A DNA stretch of 64,000 bases from Desulfolithobacter dissulfuricans (lineage in GTDB: Bacteria > Desulfobacterota > Desulfobulbia > Desulfobulbales > Desulfobulbaceae): NCBI RefSeq assembly GCF_025998535.1, contig NZ_AP024233.1, positions 2,426,001 to 2,490,000 on the forward strand. Reading direction: 5' to 3'. Both the position numbers and the translations under genes were made by a program. Shown one piece after another: positions 32,202 to 56,351 of the stretch (positions within the stretch are counted from its first letter, which is position 1; every line of letters starts with the position of its first letter). A model generated the notes under the pieces. That model ran no database searches. It was not told the origin of the DNA and saw only the letters and a program-made list of their open reading frames with translations.

Positions 32202-32257
32202 ACCGGACATCGAGTAGGGTGAGGCAAGGTAATTAAGCTTGCCTCATCCCTCTCACA

Positions 32258-32288
32258 GAACCGTACGTACGGGCCTCGTATACGGCTC
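32258..32288 (-). ncRNA. Domain V of group II intron A
   Basis: Minus-strand GAGCCGTATACGAGG then CCCGTACGTACGGTTC is a domain V hairpin, the catalytic core that binds the splicing metal ions. The equivalent positions in the other copies are 50128-50158, 52219-52249 and 54310-54340. Confidence 0.8.
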
Positions 32289-32303
32289 CTGTTTATTTTT
32301 CCT

Positions 32304-33572
32304 TCATACTGAAACAGAAATTCCGGTCTGTACAGATGCGAGGTCAAAGAGCCCCATTTCCCCATGCAGGCAGCTGTTGGGAAGGGCATAATGGCTCAGT
32401 GGACTTGCTGCATTGGCCCAGGAGTTCATCTTGATACTTTTGAACTCTCCTCTATAGCCCAGCTGTCTCAGTCTGCGGTGTAGCCTGCACGGCTTTTTCC
32501 ACAGCTTCAACTGAACAGCACGCAGCCGTCTTCTGATCCACCTCATCAGCCGAGAAAACTCACCCTTGCAGTTCGCTATCCGAAAGTAGTTGGCAAAACC
32601 CCTCAGCAACCGGTTGAGGTCGGCTATCACCTTCTCAAGGTTCACCGGGGAGTTACGCCGGGTCATCGCCTTGACCTTTGCCTTGAAGGCCCTCACCTTG
32701 CCTCGCTGTATTCGGGTCATCACGGAGTGGATACAAACTCCAAGAAATTTAATCCCTTTGAGGCTGTGGCTTATATGGGTCTTTTCCTGGTTGACGGTCA
32801 ACAGCAGTTCTTCTTCAAGATAACGACTGGCCTGGTTCAGTGCATTTTCGGCTGCGCTCTTTGACTGGCACAGGATCAGGATGTCGTCCGCATAGCGGAC
32901 GATGCGGTGGCCACGATTCTTCATAAACTGATCGAAGGAATCAAGGTATACGTTGGCAATCAACGGGCTGATAACTCCGCCCTGCGGACTGCCGACCTCG
33001 CTGGCCTGCCAACCATCTCCTGTCAGAACACCGCTTTTCAAAAACTTCTCCAGCAGACCAAGAATACTTCCATCGCTGACCCGGCGACGGAACGAGGCAA
33101 GGATCAGGTCATGGTTCAACGTGTCGAAGCATTTCGACAGATCCATGTCCACTACCCATTTCCGCTCGTACGTCCGGATGAACATCGTGGCTTTGCTGAT
33201 TGCCTGGTGACAACTCCGACCAGGACGGTAGCCGTAGCTCGACGGATGGAAATCGCGGTCAAATATTGGTTGAAGTATATCCAGCAGGGCCTGCTGTACC
33301 ACACGGTCACGGACTGCAGGTATGCCGAGTAGCCGTTTCCCGCCGTTCGGCTTCGGGATCTCCACCCGTCGCACGGCCAGCGGCTGGTAGCTCTTGTCCT
33401 GCAGTTCCGTCAGGAGATGATCGATATTGGTCGCAAGTGATCCGGCAAAATCATCGATGGACTGGCCGTCTATACCGGCAGCTCCTTTCGAGGATTTCAC
33501 CTTGTAGAATGCCTTGACCAGGTTCTCCCGGCTCAGCATTCGATCATATAGGCTGTACCAGACGTCAACCAT
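32304..33572 (-). CDS. ltrA: Group II intron reverse transcriptase/maturase (copy A)
   Basis: 422 residues (MVDVWYSLYDRML). Reverse-transcriptase blocks are complete: AAGIDGQS near 31, VDMDLSKCFD (141-150), SPQGGVISPLIANVYLD (195-211) and the catalytic YADD at 227-230, followed by a maturase (X) domain with LLRGFANYFRIANC. There is no C-terminal HNH endonuclease, as in class C and some other lineages that insert at replication forks or terminators. The ATG at 33572 has GGACAGGAGC directly upstream. The protein would splice the intron RNA and copy it into new DNA sites. Confidence 0.93.
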   Translation of the reverse strand: MVDVWYSLYDRMLSRENLVKAFYKVKSSKGAAGIDGQSIDDFAGSLATNIDHLLTELQDKSYQPLAVRRVEIPKPNGGKRLLGIPAVRDRVVQQALLDILQPIFDRDFHPSSYGYRPGRSCHQAISKATMFIRTYERKWVVDMDLSKCFDTLNHDLILASFRRRVSDGSILGLLEKFLKSGVLTGDGWQASEVGSPQGGVISPLIANVYLDSFDQFMKNRGHRIVRYADDILILCQSKSAAENALNQASRYLEEELLLTVNQEKTHISHSLKGIKFLGVCIHSVMTRIQRGKVRAFKAKVKAMTRRNSPVNLEKVIADLNRLLRGFANYFRIANCKGEFSRLMRWIRRRLRAVQLKLWKKPCRLHRRLRQLGYRGEFKSIKMNSWANAASPLSHYALPNSCLHGEMGLFDLASVQTGISVSV

Positions 33573-34300
33573 GCTCCTGTCCTGCGTTTCCCTTCCTCTA
33601 TTTCCACGTGGAGACTTCGGTTCTTCAATGGGCGCGACCGCTTTCTATCCTCATGGGCAATATACGATCAACACTCCCATCTACTCCGATGAACGGCCAA
33701 AATCGGCAGAGGACCTGTCACGGCATACCGCCGATAGCGTGCCCCGTCCCGTCGGACGGCTTGTGTTCAGTCTGCCAGGTGTCCATAGATTCCGGAAAAC
33801 CTTCAAATAAACTTCATCCCTTCGCAACAGATATGGCTTTTGGCTCATAACTGCCCCCAACGAACCAGGCCGTTGGGTCATCCCGGTTTTATCCTCCACA
33901 CTGTTACCAGGCTTCACAGGCCGGAATTTCATCACTACTACGGAATCATCTGCCACCTCACACCGCTTCGATCCGCCTTGGATTTCTCCTTGTGCTTCTC
34001 TTTTTCCGCTTAATGCGGAAACAGTGCAAGGCTTCCCCGGTTAAGGCGAACTCCCTGTGAGCGACCACATCCTCAATCACGTATCAGGACTGACCAGGTA
34101 TCGGGCTTCGCGCTATTTAGGACGCTTACCCTCCTGATACGCCGAATCAGGTTCGCTTGCGCTATGTGCCGCTCACTTCCTATCGCTTCCTTCAGACCCT
34201 GCCGTTACCAGCAACGCCCTTACGATTCGGATTGTCTTCCCCCTGGTCAGGGTGACGCCTGCTTAACACAGGCTGGGTTTGCCCGCCATGCCGGGCAAAC

Positions 34301-39595: not shown

Positions 39596-40945
39596 CTAAA
39601 CCAGCCCCTGGTCCAGCATGGCATTGACCACCTTGGTGAAGCCGGCGATATTGGCTCCGGCCAGGTAGTTTTCCTTCATGCCGTACTCCTCGGACGCGTG
39701 GAGACAGGTCCGGTGAATGGAGTGCATGATCTGCCGCAGCCGGCTATCCACCTCTTCCCTGGGCCAGCCCAGCCGCATGGAGTTCTGGGCCATCTCCAGC
39801 CCGGACACCGCGACGCCGCCGGCATTGGCCGCCTTGCCCGGACCGTACATCACGTTGTTGTCGAGAAAGACATCGATGGCCCCGGGAGTGGACGGCATGT
39901 TGGCCCCCTCGCTGACCAGGGTCACCCCGTTGTTGACCAGGTTCTGGGCATCACGCTCGCACAGTTCATTTTCTGTCGCACAGGGCATGGCGCAGTCAGC
40001 CTTGTGACTCCAGAGCGGATTATGGTCAAGGGAGGGATCATGTTCAGTATACACAGCCTGGGGATATTTCTCCACGTATTCACGAATCCGGCCCCGGCGG
40101 ATGTTTTTCAGCTGCTTGACAAAGGCCAGCTTGTCCGCATCGATCCCTTCTTCATCATAGATATACCCCGAAGAATCGGACATGGTCACCACCCTGCCCC
40201 CCATCTCCAGGATCTTTTCCGTGGTGTACTGGGCCACATTGCCTGATCCTGAAACCAGACAGGTCCTGCCCTCCAGGGTCTGGCCCCGCTCCTGGAGCAT
40301 TTCCGAAGCAAAATAGACCACCCCGTAGCCAGTGGCCTCGGGCCGGATCAGGCTGCCACCCCAAGCCAGGCTCTTGCCGGTCAAAACCCCGGTAAACTCG
40401 TTGGAAAGTTTTTTATACATTCCGAACAGGTAGCCAATCTCCCGGGCCCCGACCCCGATATCACCGGCCGGAATATCGGTGTTGGGGCCGATATGGCGGA
40501 ACAACTCGGCCATGAAGGCCTGGCAGAAACGCATGACCTCGCCGTCCGAGCGACCCTTGGGGTTGAAATCCGAGCCCCCCTTGCCGCCCCCCATGTTGAG
40601 GGTGGTCAGCGAGTTTTTGAAGACCTGCTCAAAGGCAAGGAACTTGATGATGGACAGGGTCACGGAGGGATGAAAGCGGAGCCCACCCTTGTAGGGACCG
40701 ATAGCGCTGTTCATCTCCACCCGGAACCCCCGGTTGACATGGACCTGTCCCTGATCATCCATCCAGGGGACCCGAAACATGATAACCCGTTCCGGCTCGG
40801 TGATCCGGTCGACCACCGCCTGTTTTCGATATTCCGGGTTTCGTTCCAGTACGGGACGAACACTTTCCAGCACCTCCTGTACAGCCTGATGGAATTCAAG
40901 CTCATGGACATCGCACTGGTAGACCCGTGGTTTTACCTCATCCAT
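39596..40945 (-). CDS. gdhA: NADP-type glutamate dehydrogenase
   Basis: Reductive amination of 2-oxoglutarate, a main ammonium assimilation route. 449 residues, the size of the small hexameric enzymes. Substrate-site motifs are clear: GPYKGGLRFHPSV and LNMGGGKGGSDFNPKG with the catalytic lysines, PAGDIGVGAREIGYLFG, and the nucleotide loop VSGSGNVAQYT. The start overlaps the end of the upstream receiver/PEP-binding gene by 8 bases (ATGGATGA), which implies coupled translation and perhaps regulation by that protein. Confidence 0.95.
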   Translation of the reverse strand: MDEVKPRVYQCDVHELEFHQAVQEVLESVRPVLERNPEYRKQAVVDRITEPERVIMFRVPWMDDQGQVHVNRGFRVEMNSAIGPYKGGLRFHPSVTLSIIKFLAFEQVFKNSLTTLNMGGGKGGSDFNPKGRSDGEVMRFCQAFMAELFRHIGPNTDIPAGDIGVGAREIGYLFGMYKKLSNEFTGVLTGKSLAWGGSLIRPEATGYGVVYFASEMLQERGQTLEGRTCLVSGSGNVAQYTTEKILEMGGRVVTMSDSSGYIYDEEGIDADKLAFVKQLKNIRRGRIREYVEKYPQAVYTEHDPSLDHNPLWSHKADCAMPCATENELCERDAQNLVNNGVTLVSEGANMPSTPGAIDVFLDNNVMYGPGKAANAGGVAVSGLEMAQNSMRLGWPREEVDSRLRQIMHSIHRTCLHASEEYGMKENYLAGANIAGFTKVVNAMLDQGLV

Positions 40946-43937
40946 TGTTTTCTCCTTGTGTCATATTATCACCTGCAGCAAGTACCACCGCCCTGGCGCT
41001 ACGCCCGTCCACTTTCAACTCAAAAGGCGCAGCGGCGCGAACGTGACGTACATAGCCGGTTTCCCGTACAGTCTCGAGCCCGTGGATCCAGGTCCAGTCG
41101 ACACCCCCCTGTTCTCCCGCCTTCCCACCGGCGCAGTCACTGTTCTCCACCATCAGATAGGGAATACCAAGGGACGTGATGTTCTGAAAAAAATGGGACC
41201 CCTGGGACGGTTCGGCCTGAAGGCCGCAGCCCTGGAGTTCGACAATGATCCCGACCCCGGAGATGTCCCCCCAGAGGACCGGAATACCCAGCCAGGGATC
41301 GGCGGTCCCCCAGCGTCCCGGCCCGATCAGCAGGTAGGGACGCTGCTCCCGGTGCAGCTCCCGGTTGATACGGCCAACTTCTGCGGCGATCTCCCTGGTG
41401 GCGGCGGCATCGAACTTCTCAGGGATCACGTAGACGATATCTGCAATGCCGGTGTAGAGACCATGCCCCAGGGCCTGGGACGAGCGGAGTATTGCCTCCT
41501 TCCATTCCCGGTCGGATATCTGCACTCGACGGCTCTCGCCGGTGGTGACAATGGGACGGATCTGGAGAAAATAGAACACGCTTCTGGCCGGGTCTTCGTC
41601 CAGGTCCACGGCAAATTCTATTTCCACCTCGCAGCCCATGCCCTCACGGCCAAAGGCGAGCAGTTCCCTGAGAATTTTCGGCAGCGGATAATGACCGTAC
41701 TTGAGAATGGAGGCAAAGGTCAGGACCTTGGGACCGGGGAGATCGGCGTCCCGGATACGGTGTTCGTCCGGGAAATAGGTGGACGAGAGGATGCGGACCG
41801 GAAATTCATCGGCAGCCTCATCGATACTGCGGCGAACCAGATTATTCCTGCGCAGGGAGAACAGGGCATTACGGGAACAGTCCAGGCTGTAGAACCAGGT
41901 CTGGCCGTTCTGCAGCATGTCGTCCACGGTGGAAAACTGGGGCAGGTGTTCAGGCCAGGCCGGGGAAAAGCGCAGACACCGTTCGCCCTCGACAACGGTC
42001 TTGCCGAACCCGAGCGCCACGTGGACGATACCGTCCTCGGGGCGCATGGGCGCTATCGGATAGTAGTTGAAGGACTGGGCCACGCCGGAGATGGCGGGAT
42101 AGTAGTAATCACCATAGCGGCGGCCGGCTACCTGCTGGATAATGACCGCCATGGAATCCTTGCGGGTCTGGCCGATGGAGCGGGAAAAGGCCCGCGGTCC
42201 CTCGAACCAGGTGGAGGCGTAGACCAGCTTGACCGCCCGCACCAGCTGACGCAGCCGCTCTTCGAAATCCTCACTGTCGTTGATCAGCATGAAGGTATTG
42301 TAGAGCCCGGCATAGGGACGGAACTGCGCATCCTCAAGCATGCTCGACGAACGGACCGACAGGGGATAATGGATCCGGGCAAGCCAGGCCCGCAGATCTT
42401 CCTCAAGCCAGTCGGGCAACCTGGCCTGGAGGAACTGCTCTGCCACCAGCGAGTCATCGGGTTCGTCGGGCGGTGAGAGGCGATTGATCCGGACGAAATC
42501 GTCAAAACCGTCGTTGGTTATGACGCAGGTCTGGGGAATGGTCACCGGCATGGCGGCCAGGGCCGATTTCTGGTGAATAGCCTGCTGGAGTTCCGAGGCG
42601 ACAAAGGCGATCCCCCGGGCCTTGCCGCCCATGGAACCGTGACCTATGCGGACGAAATCGGTGATATCCGGGTCAAAACCGTTGCGGGAAAACTGGGCTA
42701 CCACCCCTTTCTGGCGCAGTTTACGCAGGGCATGGACCTTGGAGACCAGGTCCTCGCGCAGATCTTCCCCGTTCTCGATCCCGGAAAAATGGTGTTTATG
42801 CAGCCTGGATGCCAGGGCGATCTCGGCCCGGGCCATGACCCAGTTGGAAAAATGGTTATGGGCCGCATGGTAGCGCAGCGAAGCTTCGGGCACCGTGCGG
42901 AGCATGTTTTCAAACTGGCGCAGGGACGAGGCCCGGCCCAGTACCGTTCCGTCGGGCATGCGGAAGACAAAGTCGCCAAACCCCAGATAGGTGAGGAAAA
43001 AATTATGAATTTCCTCACGCAGATTGCTGGAACTCTTACTGATAAACCCGGCCGGGATCATGCGGGCCAGGGCATTGTTTTTCTCTTCGGTACTGAGCAT
43101 GAGAAGAGCCAGGTCCTTCATCTCCCGGCGCAGGATACGAACCAGCTCGAACCCGGCTCCGTCGGTCAGCTTCCCGCCCATGGGGAAACGGACATCGGAG
43201 ATAACGGCAAAGATGTAGGGTCGGTAGCGGACAAAGAGCTCCATGGCCTCTTCGAACGAGGAGGCGCACAGGATCTTGGGCCGGGCCCGCATCTTCAGGA
43301 GCCGATGCTGTTCGTTGAGACCTTCGGCCAGGACCGACTGGGTCTGAAGGACCACCTCGTTATAGAGAATGGGCAGGATGGTGGAACGGTGCAGCGGGGA
43401 ATCTTCGACCAGGAGGATGATACGGACCATGGCTCTCCTGGTGTCATAATCCACGTTCACCCGGTCCTCGGTATTCTTGATGATGGCCAGCAGCAGGTCG
43501 GAATCACAGCACCAGACATAGGTGTTATCGATGGCTGAGTCATTACCGTTCATGCCGCCGGGCAGGGTATCGCGTACCGAATGGGCCAGGAGGATAACCG
43601 GCAACTCGGGATGGTGTTTCTTGACCTGGTCACCGAAACTGTAGCCATCCATGCCGCCGAGATGGGGCATGGTCACCACCAGGTCGAAACGGTCGGACTC
43701 CAGCAGTTTCAGGGCCTGTTCACCGGTGGGGACCCGGGTGATGCGGGGCGGCTCGCTCAGGTTGAGCCCGTGGTATTCGTTGATGATCCGCGAGGCCAGG
43801 CTGCCGTCCTCTTCCATGATGTAGGCATCATAGGGGCTGGAGACCAGCAGGATCTCCCGCACCTTAAACGCCATCAGTTCATGGTAGATCTTGAAATGCG
43901 GATCAAATCCGCTGATATACTGACCACCTGACACCAT
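40938..43937 (-). CDS. Receiver-domain protein with PEP synthase-like N-terminal (ATP-grasp) domain
   Basis: 999 residues, cytoplasmic. Residues about 25-150 and 170-315 are two response-regulator receiver-like domains: the first ends in MPHLGGMDGY, the second has LLVEDSP at its acidic pocket and AVISDVRFPMGG at the phosphorylation site. From about residue 430 a PEP/pyruvate-binding ATP-grasp domain follows, with GSMGGKARGIAFVAS, YPLSVRSSSMLEDAQ and YAGLYNTFM, the same motifs as PEP synthase, but the phosphohistidine and PEP domains are missing. The C-terminal third (LIGPGRWGTADPWLGIP) is a conserved region of unknown role. It is unlikely to make PEP; a sensory or ATP/phosphate-transfer role is inferred. 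Translationally coupled to gdhA. Confidence 0.8.
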   Translation of the reverse strand: MVSGGQYISGFDPHFKIYHELMAFKVREILLVSSPYDAYIMEEDGSLASRIINEYHGLNLSEPPRITRVPTGEQALKLLESDRFDLVVTMPHLGGMDGYSFGDQVKKHHPELPVILLAHSVRDTLPGGMNGNDSAIDNTYVWCCDSDLLLAIIKNTEDRVNVDYDTRRAMVRIILLVEDSPLHRSTILPILYNEVVLQTQSVLAEGLNEQHRLLKMRARPKILCASSFEEAMELFVRYRPYIFAVISDVRFPMGGKLTDGAGFELVRILRREMKDLALLMLSTEEKNNALARMIPAGFISKSSSNLREEIHNFFLTYLGFGDFVFRMPDGTVLGRASSLRQFENMLRTVPEASLRYHAAHNHFSNWVMARAEIALASRLHKHHFSGIENGEDLREDLVSKVHALRKLRQKGVVAQFSRNGFDPDITDFVRIGHGSMGGKARGIAFVASELQQAIHQKSALAAMPVTIPQTCVITNDGFDDFVRINRLSPPDEPDDSLVAEQFLQARLPDWLEEDLRAWLARIHYPLSVRSSSMLEDAQFRPYAGLYNTFMLINDSEDFEERLRQLVRAVKLVYASTWFEGPRAFSRSIGQTRKDSMAVIIQQVAGRRYGDYYYPAISGVAQSFNYYPIAPMRPEDGIVHVALGFGKTVVEGERCLRFSPAWPEHLPQFSTVDDMLQNGQTWFYSLDCSRNALFSLRRNNLVRRSIDEAADEFPVRILSSTYFPDEHRIRDADLPGPKVLTFASILKYGHYPLPKILRELLAFGREGMGCEVEIEFAVDLDEDPARSVFYFLQIRPIVTTGESRRVQISDREWKEAILRSSQALGHGLYTGIADIVYVIPEKFDAAATREIAAEVGRINRELHREQRPYLLIGPGRWGTADPWLGIPVLWGDISGVGIIVELQGCGLQAEPSQGSHFFQNITSLGIPYLMVENSDCAGGKAGEQGGVDWTWIHGLETVRETGYVRHVRAAAPFELKVDGRSARAVVLAAGDNMTQGENNG

Positions 43938-44437: not shown

Positions 44438-44650
44438 AAATGAAAATGAGATTTTTTCCTTGATCCGGGAAGCGAAATAGAGAATGATTATTATATCCTG
44501 TTTTGAATCACCACGGATCCTGTCCGTTGACATATTTTGCATTATCAGCATGTCCTATAAAACATCCCGAACAACCGAAAGGAGGTGAGAAACAGTAATA
44601 TCGCGGGAGCCTGAACAGAAGACAAATATGGAAAATTCAGGAGGAGAGAT

Positions 44651-45871
44651 ATGCGAAATGCATTGCAACGGACCCTGCTGCTGCTTCTTTGTGCCTGTGT
44701 GGTGATCTGGGCCCAAAATGCACCGGCAAAAGAAGCACAGACCATTGACGAACTGGTCGCCATGTTCGATGATTCAAAATGCGCTCAGTGCCACGAAGAG
44801 ATCTATGCCCAGTGGCAGTCGTCCTGGCATGCGCAGGCCGTGGTTTCATCACTCAAGGGCATGCGCAACTTCATCGCCATCGGCCTGGCCAAAGAATGGA
44901 AAACCAAACCCAGCAAGGCCCAGCTTCTCAAATGTCTTGACTGCCATGCTCCGGCAGTGAACTATGCCTCGGAAAAACTGGCTGTGGAGATCAGCCAGCT
45001 CATCGTGACCGCCTTTGAGAAAAAGGACAGCCCGGCCGGCAAAAAGGCCCGGACCCAGCTGGCCAAACTCAAGGTCGGCTGCCTTTCCTGCCACAACATA
45101 AAAGCCACTGCCGTGACCCGTGGCCTGCACGGACCGCCGATCAAGGGTGCCATCTACGGGCCCGAAGGTGTTTTGGCCGAGGACGACGACGGACATGACT
45201 CCATCGAGACAGTGGACATGAGCCGATCGGCCTTCTGCATGCAGTGTCATGGCCGGTACAAGGCGCCGGACGGCGAGACCATCCAGTGCAACACCCTTTC
45301 CGGCAGTTACCAGAACACCTACATCAGCCAGGGTGGCAGCCGCAGCTGTCAGGACTGCCACATGAAAAATGGTCATACCTTCCCGGGCGGCCATGACCTC
45401 GACACCGTCAAGGAGGGGCTCTCCTTTGACGTGGAGGTCACCCCCTACCAGCACCTGCCCGGCAAGATCAAGGGCGTCAAGGACAATAAGGCCTGGGTAC
45501 CCAGCGTGGTGGTAACCGCGAAAATAACCAACAATACCGGTCATCGCGTCCCCGACGGCTGACTCTGGTCCGGCAAAGTGGTCCTGGAAGTGATCGCAAA
45601 GGATGCAGAGGGCAAGGAACTGTTCAAGGCTGACAAGACGTGGTTTGAAATCGGCGTGGACCTGGATCGCGACATGCGTTACGGGGCATGGCAGATCAAG
45701 GAGATAATCGACCTGACCCTGCCACCCATGGAAACCCAGAAGGAACGGTACCTCATCCACTTTGACACCGATACCGAGGAAGTGCTCCTGGAAGCCCGAC
45801 TCTGGTACTATATCAGTGGCGGCAAGGGCGACGTGATCTATTCTCAGACCAGGAAACTGGTTTTTGACTGA
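44651..45871 (+). CDS. Exported pentahaem c-type cytochrome with in-frame UGA (possible selenocysteine 304)
   Basis: 406 codons if the TGA at 45560-45562 is read through. A signal peptide (MRNALQRTLLLLLCACVVIW) is followed by five CxxCH haem sites: CAQCH (44-48), CLDCH (95-99), CLSCH (144-148), CMQCH (196-200) and CQDCH (233-237), as in cytochrome c554-like proteins. The frame remains open for 103 codons after the TGA and continues the domain: TNNTGHRVPDG-UGA-LWSGKVVLEV, an all-beta segment with no internal start that looks required. The sequence after the UGA can form a 5-bp stem (TCCGG/CTGGA) with a 10-base loop. Selenocysteine insertion is plausible because another UGA gene lies at 30.7 kb; a nonsense mutation is the alternative. 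AGGAGGAGAG precedes the ATG. Periplasmic electron transfer is inferred. Confidence 0.75.
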
Positions 45872-45900
45872 TTTTTAAAAAAAGACACGCCTACGACCGG

Positions 45901-45929
45901 AGCGGGCCTGCGGGCCCGCTTTTCTTTTG
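45901..45929 (+). terminator. Intrinsic terminator of the pentahaem cytochrome gene
   Basis: AGCGGGCC and GGCCCGCT form an 8-bp perfect stem with a TGCG loop, followed by TTTCTTTTG. Lies 29 bases after the stop. Confidence 0.9.
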
Positions 45930-50078: not shown

Positions 50079-52169
50079 ATCGAGTAGGGTGAGGCAAGTT
50101 AATTACGCTTGCCTCATCCCTCTCACAGAACCGTACGTACGGGTCTCGTATACGGCTCCTGTTTATTTTCCTTCATATTGAAACAGAGATTCCAGTAGAT
50201 ACAGCACCAAGATCAAAGAGACCCAAGCCCCGGTGTAAATATCCGTTGGGCAGGGCATAATGGCTCAAAGGACTTGCCGCATTGGCCCAGGAGTTCATTT
50301 TGATCGCATCAAACTTCCCCCTGTATCCAAGCTGCCTCAGCCTGCGGTGAAGCCGATTGGGCTTCTTCCACAATTTCAGCTGGATGGCTCGCAGTCTTCT
50401 CCGAATCCATCTCATCAGCCTTGAAAATTCTCCTGTGCAGTTCGCTATCCGGAAGTAGTTGGCAAATCCCCTCAAGAGCGGATTGAGATCTGCAATCACT
50501 TTCTCAAGATTCACCGGGGAATTACGCCGGGTCATTGCCTTGACCTTTGCCTTGAAAGACTTAATCTTGCCTCGCTGGATTTGCGTATACTGAGAGCATA
50601 CGGATACTCCCAGAAAGTTTACGCCCCGACTGCTGTGGCAGATATGGGTCTTTTCACGGTTGACAGTCAGCAGCAATTCTCCTTCAAGATAGTGCCGTGC
50701 CTGCTCAAGAGCATTCTCGGCCGCTTTCTTTGATTGGCACAGAATCAGGATATCGTCCGCATAGCGGACTATTCGGTGGCCACGATTCTTCATGAATTGA
50801 TCAAAAGAATCGAGATACACATTGGCTATCAGAGGGCTGATCACGCCGCCCTGTGGACTGCCGATCTCGCTAGCCGTAAATCCCGAATCCGTCATTACAC
50901 CGCTCTTCAGAAACTTCTCCAGGAGACCGAGGATACTCCCGTCCCTGATCCGGCGACGAAAGGCGCTGAGGATGAGATCATGGTCCAAGGTGTCAAAGCA
51001 TTTGGACAGATCCATATCAACTACCCACTTTCGATCGTAGTCACGGATAAACATCGTCGCCTTGGATATCGCCTGATGACAACTGCGGCCTGGGCGATAG
51101 CCATAGCTCGACGGGTGGAAATCCCGATCGAATATCGGCTGGAGAATGTCGAGCAGTGCCTGCTGCACTACACGGTCACGGACTGCTGGAATACCGAGCA
51201 ACCGAACTCCTCCGGTTGGCTTGGGTATCTCTACCCGGCGCACGGCCAGTGGCTGGTAACTCTTTTCCCACAGTTCCTTCAGGAGACAGTCGATGTTGGC
51301 TTCGGCTGATGCGGCAAAGTCCTTGATGGACTGGCCGTCTATTCCGGCAGCTCCCTTCGCAGACCTCACCTTCCCAAACGCCTTGTGCAGAGCGTCCCTG
51401 CTCAGCATCCGGTCATACAGACTGTACCAAACGTCAACCATGCTCCTGTCCTGCGTCCCCATCCCTCCACTTCTGCCTGGAATCCCCGGGTCTTCACCCA
51501 AATGAGAGCGCCTTCTATCCCAATGGGCAATGTACGCTCAACTGTTCAGGTTACTCCGATGAACGGCCAAAATCAGCAGACGGCCTCTCACAGCATACCG
51601 CCGAAAATGTGCCCCGCCCCGTCGGGCAGCTTGTGTTCTGACTCCAGACCTCCATGATCTTCAGGGAACCTTCAAATAAACTTCATCCCTTCGCAACTGA
51701 TACCGCTTTTGGCAAATACCAGCCCCTGTCAAACAACGCTGACAGGTCATCCCGGTTTTATCCTCCACGCTGTTACCAGGCTTCTCCGGCCGGGATTTCA
51801 TCACTACTACGGAATCATCTGCCACCTCCCACCGCTTCGGTAGGCCTTGGATCTCTCCTTGAACCTTCCTTAACTCTCGTACTGCAAGTACGCTAGGAGG
51901 CTTCCCCGGTTAAGGCGAACTCCCGGTGAGCAATCCCATCCTCAATCACGCCAAAGGTCTGACCAGGTATCGGGCTTCACGCTATTGTGCACGCTTACCC
52001 ACCTATGACGCCGAATCAGGTTCACTTACGCTATGTACCGCTCACTTCCTATCGCTTCCTTCAGACCCTGCCGTTGCCAGCAACGCCCTTGCGATTCGGA
52101 TTGTCTTCCCCCTGGTCGGGGTGACGCCTGCGTTCCGCAGGCTGGGTTTGCCCGCCATGCCGGGCAAAC
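50079..52169 (-). mobile_element. Group II intron, copy B (2,091 bp; last of the tandem triplet)
   Basis: Starts GTTTGCCCGGCATGG at 52169 (abutting copy C without a single spacer base) and ends CCCTACTCGAT at 50079, followed by the true 3' exon TTCTTTATATG. Contains the structured 5' region (51442-52169), the reverse-transcriptase gene, domain V (50128-50158) and domain VI. Encoded protein identical to that of copy C. Confidence 0.92.
50173..51441 (-). CDS. ltrA: Group II intron reverse transcriptase/maturase (copy B)
   Basis: 422 residues from the ATG at 51441, which follows GGACAGGAGC exactly as in copy A; the frame is open 20 codons further upstream (to 51501), with an alternative ATG right behind GGAGGG. 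Complete reverse-transcriptase domain with YADD, SPQGGVISPL and a maturase domain; no endonuclease domain. Clearly diverged from copy A (for example SRDALHKAF in place of SRENLVKAF) but otherwise alignable end to end. Confidence 0.93.
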   Translation of the reverse strand: MVDVWYSLYDRMLSRDALHKAFGKVRSAKGAAGIDGQSIKDFAASAEANIDCLLKELWEKSYQPLAVRRVEIPKPTGGVRLLGIPAVRDRVVQQALLDILQPIFDRDFHPSSYGYRPGRSCHQAISKATMFIRDYDRKWVVDMDLSKCFDTLDHDLILSAFRRRIRDGSILGLLEKFLKSGVMTDSGFTASEIGSPQGGVISPLIANVYLDSFDQFMKNRGHRIVRYADDILILCQSKKAAENALEQARHYLEGELLLTVNREKTHICHSSRGVNFLGVSVCSQYTQIQRGKIKSFKAKVKAMTRRNSPVNLEKVIADLNPLLRGFANYFRIANCTGEFSRLMRWIRRRLRAIQLKLWKKPNRLHRRLRQLGYRGKFDAIKMNSWANAASPLSHYALPNGYLHRGLGLFDLGAVSTGISVSI

Positions 52170-54260
52170 ATCGAGTAGGGTGAGGCAAGTTAATTACGCT
52201 TGCCTCATCCCTCTCACAGAACCGTACGTACGGGTCTCGTATACGGCTCCTGTTTATTTTCCTTCATATTGAAACAGAGATTCCAGTAGATACAGCACCA
52301 AGATCAAAGAGACCCAAGCCCCGGTGTAAATATCCGTTGGGCAGGGCATAATGGCTCAAAGGACTTGCCGCATTGGCCCAGGAGTTCATTTTGATCGCAT
52401 CAAACTTCCCCCTGTATCCAAGCTGCCTCAGCCTGCGGTGAAGCCGATTGGGCTTCTTCCACAATTTCAGCTGGATGGCTCGCAGTCTTCTCCGAATCCA
52501 TCTCATCAGCCTTGAAAATTCTCCTGTGCAGTTCGCTATCCGGAAGTAGTTGGCAAATCCCCTCAAGAGCGGATTGAGATCTGCAATCACTTTCTCAAGA
52601 TTCACCGGGGAATTACGCCGGGTCATTGCCTTGACCTTTGCCTTGAAAGACTTAATCTTGCCTCGCTGGATTTGCGTATACTGAGAGCATACGGATACTC
52701 CCAGAAAGTTTACGCCCCGACTGCTGTGGCAGATATGGGTCTTTTCACGGTTGACAGTCAGCAGCAATTCTCCTTCAAGATAGTGCCGTGCCTGCTCAAG
52801 AGCATTCTCGGCCGCTTTCTTTGATTGGCACAGAATCAGGATATCGTCCGCATAGCGGACTATTCGGTGGCCACGATTCTTCATGAATTGATCAAAAGAA
52901 TCGAGATACACATTGGCTATCAGAGGGCTGATCACGCCGCCCTGTGGACTGCCGATCTCGCTAGCCGTAAATCCCGAATCCGTCATTACACCGCTCTTCA
53001 GAAACTTCTCCAGGAGACCGAGGATACTCCCGTCCCTGATCCGGCGACGAAAGGCGCTGAGGATGAGATCATGGTCCAAGGTGTCAAAGCATTTGGACAG
53101 ATCCATATCAACTACCCACTTTCGATCGTAGTCACGGATAAACATCGTCGCCTTGGATATCGCCTGATGACAACTGCGGCCTGGGCGATAGCCATAGCTC
53201 GACGGGTGGAAATCCCGATCGAATATCGGCTGGAGAATGTCGAGCAGTGCCTGCTGCACTACACGGTCACGGACTGCTGGAATACCGAGCAACCGAACTC
53301 CTCCGGTTGGCTTGGGTATCTCTACCCGGCGCACGGCCAGTGGCTGGTAACTCTTTTCCCACAGTTCCTTCAGGAGACAGTCGATGTTGGCTTCGGCTGA
53401 TGCGGCAAAGTCCTTGATGGACTGGCCGTCTATTCCGGCAGCTCCCTTCGCAGACCTCACCTTCCCAAACGCCTTGTGCAGAGCGTCCCTGCTCAGCATC
53501 CGGTCATACAGACTGTACCAAACGTCAACCATGCTCCTGTCCTGCGTCCCCATCCCTCCACTTCTGCCTGGAATCCCCGGGTCTTCACCCAAATGAGAGC
53601 GCCTTCTATCCCAATGGGCAATGTACGCTCAACTGTTCAGGTTACTCCGATGAACGGCCAAAATCAGCAGACGGCCTCTCACAGCATACCGCCGAAAATG
53701 TGCCCCGCCCCGTCGGGCAGCTTGTGTTCTGACTCCAGACCTCCATGATCTTCAGGGAACCTTCAAATAAACTTCATCCCTTCGCAACTGATACCGCTTT
53801 TGGCAAATACCAGCCCCTGTCAAACAACGCTGACAGGTCATCCCGGTTTTATCCTCCACGCTGTTACCAGGCTTCTCCGGCCGGGATTTCATCACTACTA
53901 CGGAATCATCTGCCACCTCCCACCGCTTCGGTAGGCCTTGGATCTCTCCTTGAACCTTCCTTAACTCTCGTACTGCAAGTACGCTAGGAGGCTTCCCCGG
54001 TTAAGGCGAACTCCCGGTGAGCAATCCCATCCTCAATCACGCCAAAGGTCTGACCAGGTATCGGGCTTCACGCTATTGTGCACGCTTACCCACCTATGAC
54101 GCCGAATCAGGTTCACTTACGCTATGTACCGCTCACTTCCTATCGCTTCCTTCAGACCCTGCCGTTGCCAGCAACGCCCTTGCGATTCGGATTGTCTTCC
54201 CCCTGGTCGGGGTGACGCCTGCGTTCCGCAGGCTGGGTTTGCCCGCCATGCCGGGCAAAC
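52170..54260 (-). mobile_element. Group II intron, copy C (2,091 bp; middle of the triplet)
   Basis: Same sequence as B as far as I can compare. Both ends join directly to other intron copies, so it has no exon of its own: its 5' base follows the GAT end of copy D, and its GAT end is followed by the GTTTG start of copy B. Confidence 0.92.
52264..53532 (-). CDS. ltrA: Group II intron reverse transcriptase/maturase (copy C)
   Basis: 422 residues, identical in translation to copy B, including the YADD catalytic motif and Gln101 in LDILQPIF. All remarks on start site and domains for copy B apply. Confidence 0.93.
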   Translation of the reverse strand: MVDVWYSLYDRMLSRDALHKAFGKVRSAKGAAGIDGQSIKDFAASAEANIDCLLKELWEKSYQPLAVRRVEIPKPTGGVRLLGIPAVRDRVVQQALLDILQPIFDRDFHPSSYGYRPGRSCHQAISKATMFIRDYDRKWVVDMDLSKCFDTLDHDLILSAFRRRIRDGSILGLLEKFLKSGVMTDSGFTASEIGSPQGGVISPLIANVYLDSFDQFMKNRGHRIVRYADDILILCQSKKAAENALEQARHYLEGELLLTVNREKTHICHSSRGVNFLGVSVCSQYTQIQRGKIKSFKAKVKAMTRRNSPVNLEKVIADLNPLLRGFANYFRIANCTGEFSRLMRWIRRRLRAIQLKLWKKPNRLHRRLRQLGYRGKFDAIKMNSWANAASPLSHYALPNGYLHRGLGLFDLGAVSTGISVSI

Positions 54261-56351
54261 ATCGAGTAGGGTGAGGCAAGTTAATTACGCTTGCCTCATC
54301 CCTCTCACAGAACCGTACGTACGGGTCTCGTATACGGCTCCTGTTTATTTTCCTTCATATTGAAACAGAGATTCCAGTAGATACAGCACCAAGATCAAAG
54401 AGACCCAAGCCCCGGTGTAAATATCCGTTGGGCAGGGCATAATGGCTCAAAGGACTTGCCGCATTGGCCCAGGAGTTCATTTTGATCGCATCAAACTTCC
54501 CCCTGTATCCAAGCTGCCTCAGCCTGCGGTGAAGCCGATTGGGCTTCTTCCACAATTTCAGCTGGATGGCTCGCAGTCTTCTCCGAATCCATCTCATCAG
54601 CCTTGAAAATTCTCCTGTGCAGTTCGCTATCCGGAAGTAGTTGGCAAATCCCCTCAAGAGCGGATTGAGATCTGCAATCACTTTCTCAAGATTCACCGGG
54701 GAATTACGCCGGGTCATTGCCTTGACCTTTGCCTTGAAAGACTTAATCTTGCCTCGCTGGATTTGCGTATACTGAGAGCATACGGATACTCCCAGAAAGT
54801 TTACGCCCCGACTGCTGTGGCAGATATGGGTCTTTTCACGGTTGACAGTCAGCAGCAATTCTCCTTCAAGATAGTGCCGTGCCTGCTCAAGAGCATTCTC
54901 GGCCGCTTTCTTTGATTGGCACAGAATCAGGATATCGTCCGCATAGCGGACTATTCGGTGGCCACGATTCTTCATGAATTGATCAAAAGAATCGAGATAC
55001 ACATTGGCTATCAGAGGGCTGATCACGCCGCCCTGTGGACTGCCGATCTCGCTAGCCGTAAATCCCGAATCCGTCATTACACCGCTCTTCAGAAACTTCT
55101 CCAGGAGACCGAGGATACTCCCGTCCCTGATCCGGCGACGAAAGGCGCTGAGGATGAGATCATGGTCCAAGGTGTCAAAGCATTTGGACAGATCCATATC
55201 AACTACCCACTTTCGATCGTAGTCACGGATAAACATCGTCGCCTTGGATATCGCCTGATGACAACTGCGGCCTGGGCGATAGCCATAGCTCGACGGGTGG
55301 AAATCCCGATCGAATATCGGCAGGAGAATGTCGAGCAGTGCCTGCTGCACTACACGGTCACGGACTGCTGGAATACCGAGCAACCGAACTCCTCCGGTTG
55401 GCTTGGGTATCTCTACCCGGCGCACGGCCAGTGGCTGGTAACTCTTTTCCCACAGTTCCTTCAGGAGACAGTCGATGTTGGCTTCGGCTGATGCGGCAAA
55501 GTCCTTGATGGACTGGCCGTCTATTCCGGCAGCTCCCTTCGCAGACCTCACCTTCCCAAACGCCTTGTGCAGAGCGTCCCTGCTCAGCATCCGGTCATAC
55601 AGACTGTACCAAACGTCAACCATGCTCCTGTCCTGCGTCCCCATCCCTCCACTTCTGCCTGGAATCCCCGGGTCTTCACCCAAATGAGAGCGCCTTCTAT
55701 CCCAATGGGCAATGTACGCTCAACTGTTCAGGTTACTCCGATGAACGGCCAAAATCAGCAGACGGCCTCTCACAGCATACCGCCGAAAATGTGCCCCGCC
55801 CCGTCGGGCAGCTTGTGTTCTGACTCCAGACCTCCATGATCTTCAGGGAACCTTCAAATAAACTTCATCCCTTCGCAACTGATACCGCTTTTGGCAAATA
55901 CCAGCCCCTGTCAAACAACGCTGACAGGTCATCCCGGTTTTATCCTCCACGCTGTTACCAGGCTTCTCCGGCCGGGATTTCATCACTACTACGGAATCAT
56001 CTGCCACCTCCCACCGCTTCGGTAGGCCTTGGATCTCTCCTTGAACCTTCCTTAACTCTCGTACTGCAAGTACGCTAGGAGGCTTCCCCGGTTAAGGCGA
56101 ACTCCCGGTGAGCAATCCCATCCTCAATCACGCCAAAGGTCTGACCAGGTATCGGGCTTCACGCTATTGTGCACGCTTACCCACCTATGACGCCGAATCA
56201 GGTTCACTTACGCTATGTACCGCTCACTTCCTATCGCTTCCTTCAGACCCTGCCGTTGCCAGCAACGCCCTTGCGATTCGGATTGTCTTCCCCCTGGTCG
56301 GGGTGACGCCTGCGTTCCGCAGGCTGGGTTTGCCCGCCATGCCGGGCAAAC
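54261..56351 (-). mobile_element. Group II intron, copy D (2,091 bp; first of the triplet)
   Basis: Its 5' base (56351) follows ...GGTTTTTTTTGT, the T-tract of the fmdB terminator, the expected class C target. Its 3' end at 54261 runs straight into copy C. Differs from B and C by an A instead of T at 55322. Confidence 0.92.
54355..55623 (-). CDS. ltrA: Group II intron reverse transcriptase/maturase (copy D)
   Basis: 422 residues identical to copies B and C except residue 101, Leu instead of Gln (LDILLPIF), caused by the base at 55322. Copy A also has Gln here, so D carries the derived state. The residue lies in the finger region, not in the catalytic YADD, so activity need not be lost. Confidence 0.93.
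   Translation of the reverse strand: MVDVWYSLYDRMLSRDALHKAFGKVRSAKGAAGIDGQSIKDFAASAEANIDCLLKELWEKSYQPLAVRRVEIPKPTGGVRLLGIPAVRDRVVQQALLDILLPIFDRDFHPSSYGYRPGRSCHQAISKATMFIRDYDRKWVVDMDLSKCFDTLDHDLILSAFRRRIRDGSILGLLEKFLKSGVMTDSGFTASEIGSPQGGVISPLIANVYLDSFDQFMKNRGHRIVRYADDILILCQSKKAAENALEQARHYLEGELLLTVNREKTHICHSSRGVNFLGVSVCSQYTQIQRGKIKSFKAKVKAMTRRNSPVNLEKVIADLNPLLRGFANYFRIANCTGEFSRLMRWIRRRLRAIQLKLWKKPNRLHRRLRQLGYRGKFDAIKMNSWANAASPLSHYALPNGYLHRGLGLFDLGAVSTGISVSI

Follow-up and report, generated by a model that had tools for sequence, protein, structure and literature searches.

The window analyzed here is a 64,000-nucleotide stretch of the Desulfolithobacter dissulfuricans genome (3,596,428 bases in one contig), and its forward strand carries a gene for a predicted pentaheme c-type cytochrome interrupted by an in-frame TGA (Table 1). 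The gene opens with ATG 44651 and closes with the TGA at 45869-45871, forming one frame of 406 residues in which codon 304 is itself TGA. As an earlier sequence-only reading of this DNA had described, the internal UGA follows the string TNNTGHRVPDG, five heme sites precede it, and the gene ends in a normal stop; the CXXCH motifs are invariant throughout all 15 aligned sequences. That reading had also counted 103 coherent codons past the UGA with no new start. The coherent frame stands, but it comprises 102 sense codons, and one of the listed open reading frames, 97 residues long, begins at an in-frame GTG at 45578. Of the expression signals proposed for the gene, the strong ribosome-binding site corresponds to a putative AGGAGGA ahead of the ATG, recognized from its letters, and the gene's own terminator to a stem behind the stop, although the region contains three such terminator-like sites against 2.7 in shuffled sequence.

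Table 1. Features of the cytochrome gene and its surroundings (positions within the window)
Feature	Position	Strand	Basis
Pentaheme c-type cytochrome selenoprotein gene, NF040886 (ExtKL/MccSep family), 406 residues	44651..45871	+	Profile match, PDB match, alignment of relatives
Ribosome-binding-site-like AGGAGGA (candidate)	44639..44645	+	Letters only
Region of five CXXCH heme-binding motifs	44780..45361	+	Residues 44-48, 95-99, 144-148, 196-200, 233-237
Cys213 codon, free Cys, candidate partner of Sec304	45287..45289	+	Conservation
In-frame TGA, probably read as selenocysteine, residue 304	45560..45562	+	Conservation; aligned with U325 of MccSep
SECIS-like hairpin (candidate)	45578..45597	+	Stem 45578-45583 with 45592-45597, loop 45584-45591; comparative evidence
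Terminator-like stem-loop, 3' of the gene	45899..45922	+	Stem scan; site number in region not above shuffles

The significance of the long frame beyond the TGA was gauged from all TGA-ended open stretches of at least 200 codons on both strands of the window. At least 100 further codons follow the TGA in 6 of 23 such stretches on the plus strand (this gene included) and in 4 of 29 on the minus strand. With 10 of 52 comparable stretches, the gene among them, behaving in this way, such long open runs are no rarity in the window; the length of the frame past the TGA is weak evidence by itself, and the case rests on homology. GC content by codon position is similar on the two sides, 0.58/0.43/0.73 before the TGA and 0.59/0.31/0.73 after it, the second position being lower after the TGA. 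Near relatives align over their full length through the TGA, which lies at the same codon; judged from these alignments, it is conservation across the TGA that lifts the long frame above chance.

Residue 304 and the downstream hairpin among relatives

Relatives were gathered by a contig scan with the window protein (30 loci), by family searches, which returned members above the cut-off in 40 of 395 genomes of the phylum and 33 of 73 of the family, and from additional material comprising 20 more fetched stretches and searches of four locus genomes. Every sequence was aligned with the window protein, matches with a raw score below 150 were dropped, and repeats were removed by identical DNA around the site. 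Second copies in L071 and L122, which end short of position 304, were dropped as well, and eight entries above the cut-off, with one TGA each (G358, G196, G439, G435, G433, G447, G445 and G450), lie outside the final set. Among the resulting 101 distinct matches, the window copy included, residue 304 is encoded by TGA in 86, by a Cys codon in 10, and by another codon in five (one each of CTG, GTT, ATC, ATG and TCT). The sequence-only reading had taken any residue other than Cys or Sec in homologs as evidence against selenocysteine, and 96 of the 101 carry TGA or Cys.

Three of the five exceptions (L030, L124 and L135) are remote and score under the family cut-off, as does one TGA match (L123), and the other two are sister paralogs. 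The latter, L071 (GTT) and L108 (ATC), each lie beside a second family copy, that of L108 being a Cys copy, and a loss of Sec chemistry following duplication is possible in both. In these two proteins Ile or Val stands instead of Sec after the residues PDS, and the second copy of L071 ends before the site. Within the aligned part, L014 has a TAG and the Cys relative L110 two TAA. In a quick tree of 100 rows (the fragment L019 excluded), the Cys label requires three changes.

The SECIS-like hairpin lies 16-35 nt past the UGA, with GTG 45578 as its first codon, and was evaluated in 85 distinct 48-nt stretches counted from the UGA (one of the 86 duplicates another). In its six-pair stem, which joins positions 19-24 with 33-38, 92.2% of 510 cells are paired; shuffles reach 87.9% and slid versions no more than 65.9%. 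Cells changed on both sides number 20, where shuffles give 3.9 and slid versions no more than 10. Two of five covariation measures do not rise above shuffles: there are 3 pairs with double changes and 10 further pair types, values reached by 153 and 128 of 500 shuffles, respectively. The four inner pairs persist in 83, 85, 78 and 78 of the 86 TGA genes versus 5, 1, 2 and 0 of the 10 Cys genes, in counts that treat related sequences as separate, and the two outer pairs remain intact in either kind of gene; because seven of the ten Cys genes form one clade, this contrast amounts to about three independent groups. In the TGA genes, codon 311 is mostly GTC (65 of 86) and codon 312 mostly CTG (80 of 86), whereas at other sites of these genes the Val and Leu codons are mixed. 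The covariation, the loss of pairs in Cys genes and the bias at codons 311 and 312 together fit a SECIS element. Folding energy after the window's UGA, taken as a single sequence, is no better than that of shuffles (z 0.47 and z 0.72), and an Rfam search of the gene region with E up to 10 returned no SECIS and three sub-threshold unrelated matches.

The genome encodes machinery for selenocysteine incorporation. The matches to selB (380 bits), selA (637), selD (352) and tRNA-Sec (73 bits) all exceed their cut-offs, that for tRNA-Sec being exceeded also in 5 of 14 control genomes, and ARAGORN reports a tRNA-SeC with anticodon tca. By the count of the search, the selD match (L041, genome 2931160-2932086) itself contains one in-frame TGA. 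For D. dissulfuricans GF1 (GCA_025998535.1), 22 known selenoprotein genes are given in Table 2 of a published survey (PMC12013277). The proteome of the strain has been deposited as PXD036606/JPST001840 (PMC9751629); the words cytochrome, multiheme and selenocysteine are absent from the main text of the proteome paper. The proposal that the UGA is read as selenocysteine is strongly supported by the Sec/Cys conservation, the hairpin covariation and the presence of this machinery.

It might instead be supposed that two adjacent genes meet at the TGA, a 303-residue cytochrome ending there and a small gene starting from GTG 45578, like the annotated Geobacter extK and extL. Such an arrangement would account for the 97-residue frame that the GTG begins, and the 2007 paper that predicted the family left a conserved operon open because no SECIS element was found (PMC1914089). 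It is nevertheless very improbable: the short stretch from TGA to GTG, five codons long, shows conservation at the protein level (LWSGK or LWSGQ in most near-clade members), the would-be start is the first codon of the hairpin, the ten relatives with Cys at the site read as a single frame (L110 with its two TAA elsewhere), and base pairing in the hairpin is maintained in TGA genes but largely absent from Cys genes. A sequencing error or a nonsense mutation in a decaying gene has a practically negligible probability, given an identical TGA in 86 of the 101 distinct matches, which come from many genomes.

Family membership and genomic setting

The window protein scores 446.1 bits with the NCBIfam profile NF040886 (multiheme c-type cytochrome (seleno)protein ExtKL), for which the cut-off is 250; residues 14-397 align to positions 16-414 of 423, and the protein has the family's Sec (or Cys) after the GH..PDG motif. 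It also matches the PDB entries 9wt8 and 9wt9 (MccSep and its U325A mutant) with E values of 1e-43 and 5.9e-44, residue 325 aligning with residue 304. The comparison with MccSep (9wt8, 9wt9, 9wta, 9wtb and 9wtc), which covers aligned residues 20-377, was made by name and sequence alone, and a literature search on MccSep returned nothing relevant. Five heme motifs, an aligned TGA and a C-terminal beta domain are common to the window protein and Geobacter GSU2937-2936 (NF040886, cyt_C_like_Sec), and identity to Geomonas family proteins is about 30%. On these sequence comparisons, the gene is almost certainly a member of the ExtKL/MccSep family with Sec at its in-frame UGA.

A predicted model of the protein without heme (mean pLDDT 72.4, moderate) divides into a helical heme part and, starting near residue 257, a beta domain; the C-terminal part is modeled as beta strands, in agreement with the C-terminal beta domain that had been anticipated there. 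The best fold match of the model is the pentaheme cytochrome c552 of Thermochromatium tepidum (5ze8; Z 17.5, rmsd 5.0, 305 residues), which shows 21% identity in the fold match and a sequence E value of 1.6e-10, the best stretch comprising residues 22-102 only. MccSep, which was found by sequence search, is absent among the best 50 matches listed by Foldseek and by VIA-align.

The family was predicted in 2007 from Geobacter GSU2937 and GSU2936, in a study that found neither a SECIS element nor non-Sec homologs (PMC1914089), and it is listed among prokaryotic selenoproteins in reviews (PMC13188914, PMC9312934). ExtKL has been described as a Cytc-like selenoprotein with preliminary hints that it takes part in selenite reduction, and a Geobacter extI mutant has a selenite/tellurite phenotype that does not isolate ExtKL (PMC5877670). 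The TGA between ExtK and ExtL was noted in work that considered extHIJKL a possible electron conduit; this cluster affects Fe(III) and Mn(IV) reduction, and its deletion, which likewise does not isolate ExtKL, left 66.3% of wild-type Fe(III) citrate reduction (PMC6148476). Homologs of ExtKL have been reported in cable bacteria (PMC11976967) and in syntrophic sulfate reducers (PMC10553843). The pentaheme cytochromes of cable bacteria, termed sPHC, are structural homologs of ExtKL with no adjacent porin gene, and the word selenocysteine is absent from the main text of the paper describing them (PMC11976967); an Electrothrix protein (L007) falls within the clade of the window gene.

Selenium in a c-type cytochrome had been put forward as unusual in the sequence-only reading. 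With the NF040886 profile, the PDB entries, the 2007 prediction and the reviews all attesting an established ExtKL/MccSep family, any claim to a first selenium-containing c-type cytochrome falls, and the feature is an already known one, a real and ordinary member of a described bacterial selenoprotein family. Relative to the 2007 prediction (PMC1914089), both a SECIS-like hairpin and non-Sec homologs are seen in the wider set. Modest additions are a clade apart from the Geobacteraceae, a gene located outside the ext operon, and an invariant Cys213.

Whereas Geobacter ExtKL belongs to the ext operon, no cluster of the extHIJKLMNOPQS type surrounds the window gene, which falls in a separate supported clade of the quick tree. 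Its neighbors encode a PPDK_N/response-regulator protein, MobA/MobB, and menaquinone-synthesis, phosphorylase-family and queuosine-synthesis proteins, the functions of which are unrelated. The first of these, at 40938-43937, is a protein of 999 residues combining a response-regulator domain with the N-terminal (ATP-binding) domain of pyruvate phosphate dikinase. Both flanks of this neighborhood recur in 4 of 17 clade loci (L004, L005, L012 and L015), and no other open reading frame of at least 110 codons with at least two CXXCH motifs occurs in the 17 loci within flanks of up to 3 kb a side. In the tree, the window gene groups with Desulfobulbales, Thermodesulfatator and some Nitrospirota, apart from the Geobacteraceae group, the two groups being separated with SH-aLRT values of 96 and 99 (midpoint root for drawing). 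The Thermodesulfatator genome of L013 holds one protein from each of the two clades. When Geomonas ExtM was searched against the D. dissulfuricans genome, it matched a frame of 595 residues (residues 67-351 at 38% and 384-631 at 32%), with further multiheme frames matching more weakly, so the genome may encode an ExtM-like protein at another locus; a Geomonas ExtI query gave no match, an empty answer that is uninformative in a search of this kind.

Elsewhere in the window, positions 50079-56351 hold three near-identical head-to-tail copies of a group II intron with a period of 2091 and no spacer, carrying a reverse transcriptase/maturase open reading frame of 442 residues. Across the genome, the 2091-bp unit is matched 36 times: 15 matches run at about 100% over the full length or all but one base, and 17 others at about 80%. 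Further abutting tandem copies lie at genome positions 2212474-2216655, 3324677-3328855 and 1964996-1971285, with a mixed pair at 309234-313413, and a single copy of the 80% kind occupies 32209-34300 of the window (genome 2458209-2460300).

Possible role of selenocysteine 304

The hydrophobic N-terminus and the heme c motifs suggest that the protein is exported to the periplasm. In the proposed mechanism, SelB and tRNA-Sec would decode UGA 45560 by means of the hairpin just downstream, yielding an exported pentaheme c-type cytochrome whose single selenocysteine is residue 304. The five hemes would form an electron wire, and Sec304, placed in the conserved GH-x-x-PDG-U loop between two C-terminal beta strands and perhaps paired with Cys213, may serve as the redox-active or substrate-binding end of the heme chain. 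Electrons of the periplasmic cytochrome pool would then reduce, or be drawn from, a small selenium or sulfur compound at Sec304.

Besides the heme motifs, no variation occurs among Sec and Cys members at Cys213, His298, Pro301 or Asp302; Cys213 is present in 95 of the 95 that have a residue there, and its pattern of conservation makes it a possible partner of Sec304. The case for the pair is weakened by the presence of Cys213 outside the Sec and Cys members, for it is also retained in both Val/Ile paralogs. Joint gain and loss of Cys213 and Sec/Cys304 was considered, with 20 more remote loci and three earlier ones, and is not clean: among 23 stretches with letters in both columns, none having Sec or Cys at 304, a Cys occupies the 213 column in 7, in 6 of them within a locally gapped, different stretch (a 24th stretch, L146, is gapped at 304).

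A purely structural selenocysteine, acting as a heme ligand or as a Se-S lock to Cys213 in an ordinary wire such as a conduit to outside acceptors, is a tenable but rather doubtful alternative. Residue 304 lies six residues past His298, which is itself present in 101 of 101 rows; Cys replaces Sec at three places in the tree; two paralogs manage with neither; and the effect of the Geobacter extHIJKL cluster on Fe(III) and Mn(IV) reduction (PMC6148476) would suit such a conduit. What speaks for more than structure is the persistence of a costly residue in 86 of 101 matches, which suggests a chemistry less well performed by Cys. The model in which Sec304 forms a catalytic end stands at about an even chance on the sequence evidence, and the fuller account, a Sec cytochrome of the ExtKL/MccSep family with a reactive end at Sec304, is probably the right one.

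A further and unlikely reading is that the window gene belongs to a second, functionally distinct branch of the family, where Sec304 and Cys213, paired at the end of a heme wire, act on sulfur compounds and not on selenite. Such a branch would comprise Sec cytochromes standing alone in Desulfobulbales, in relatives of Thermodesulfatator and in some Nitrospirota, with at least one genome retaining both such a protein and an ExtKL-like one from the other clade. The Sec304-Cys213 pair is a testable idea.
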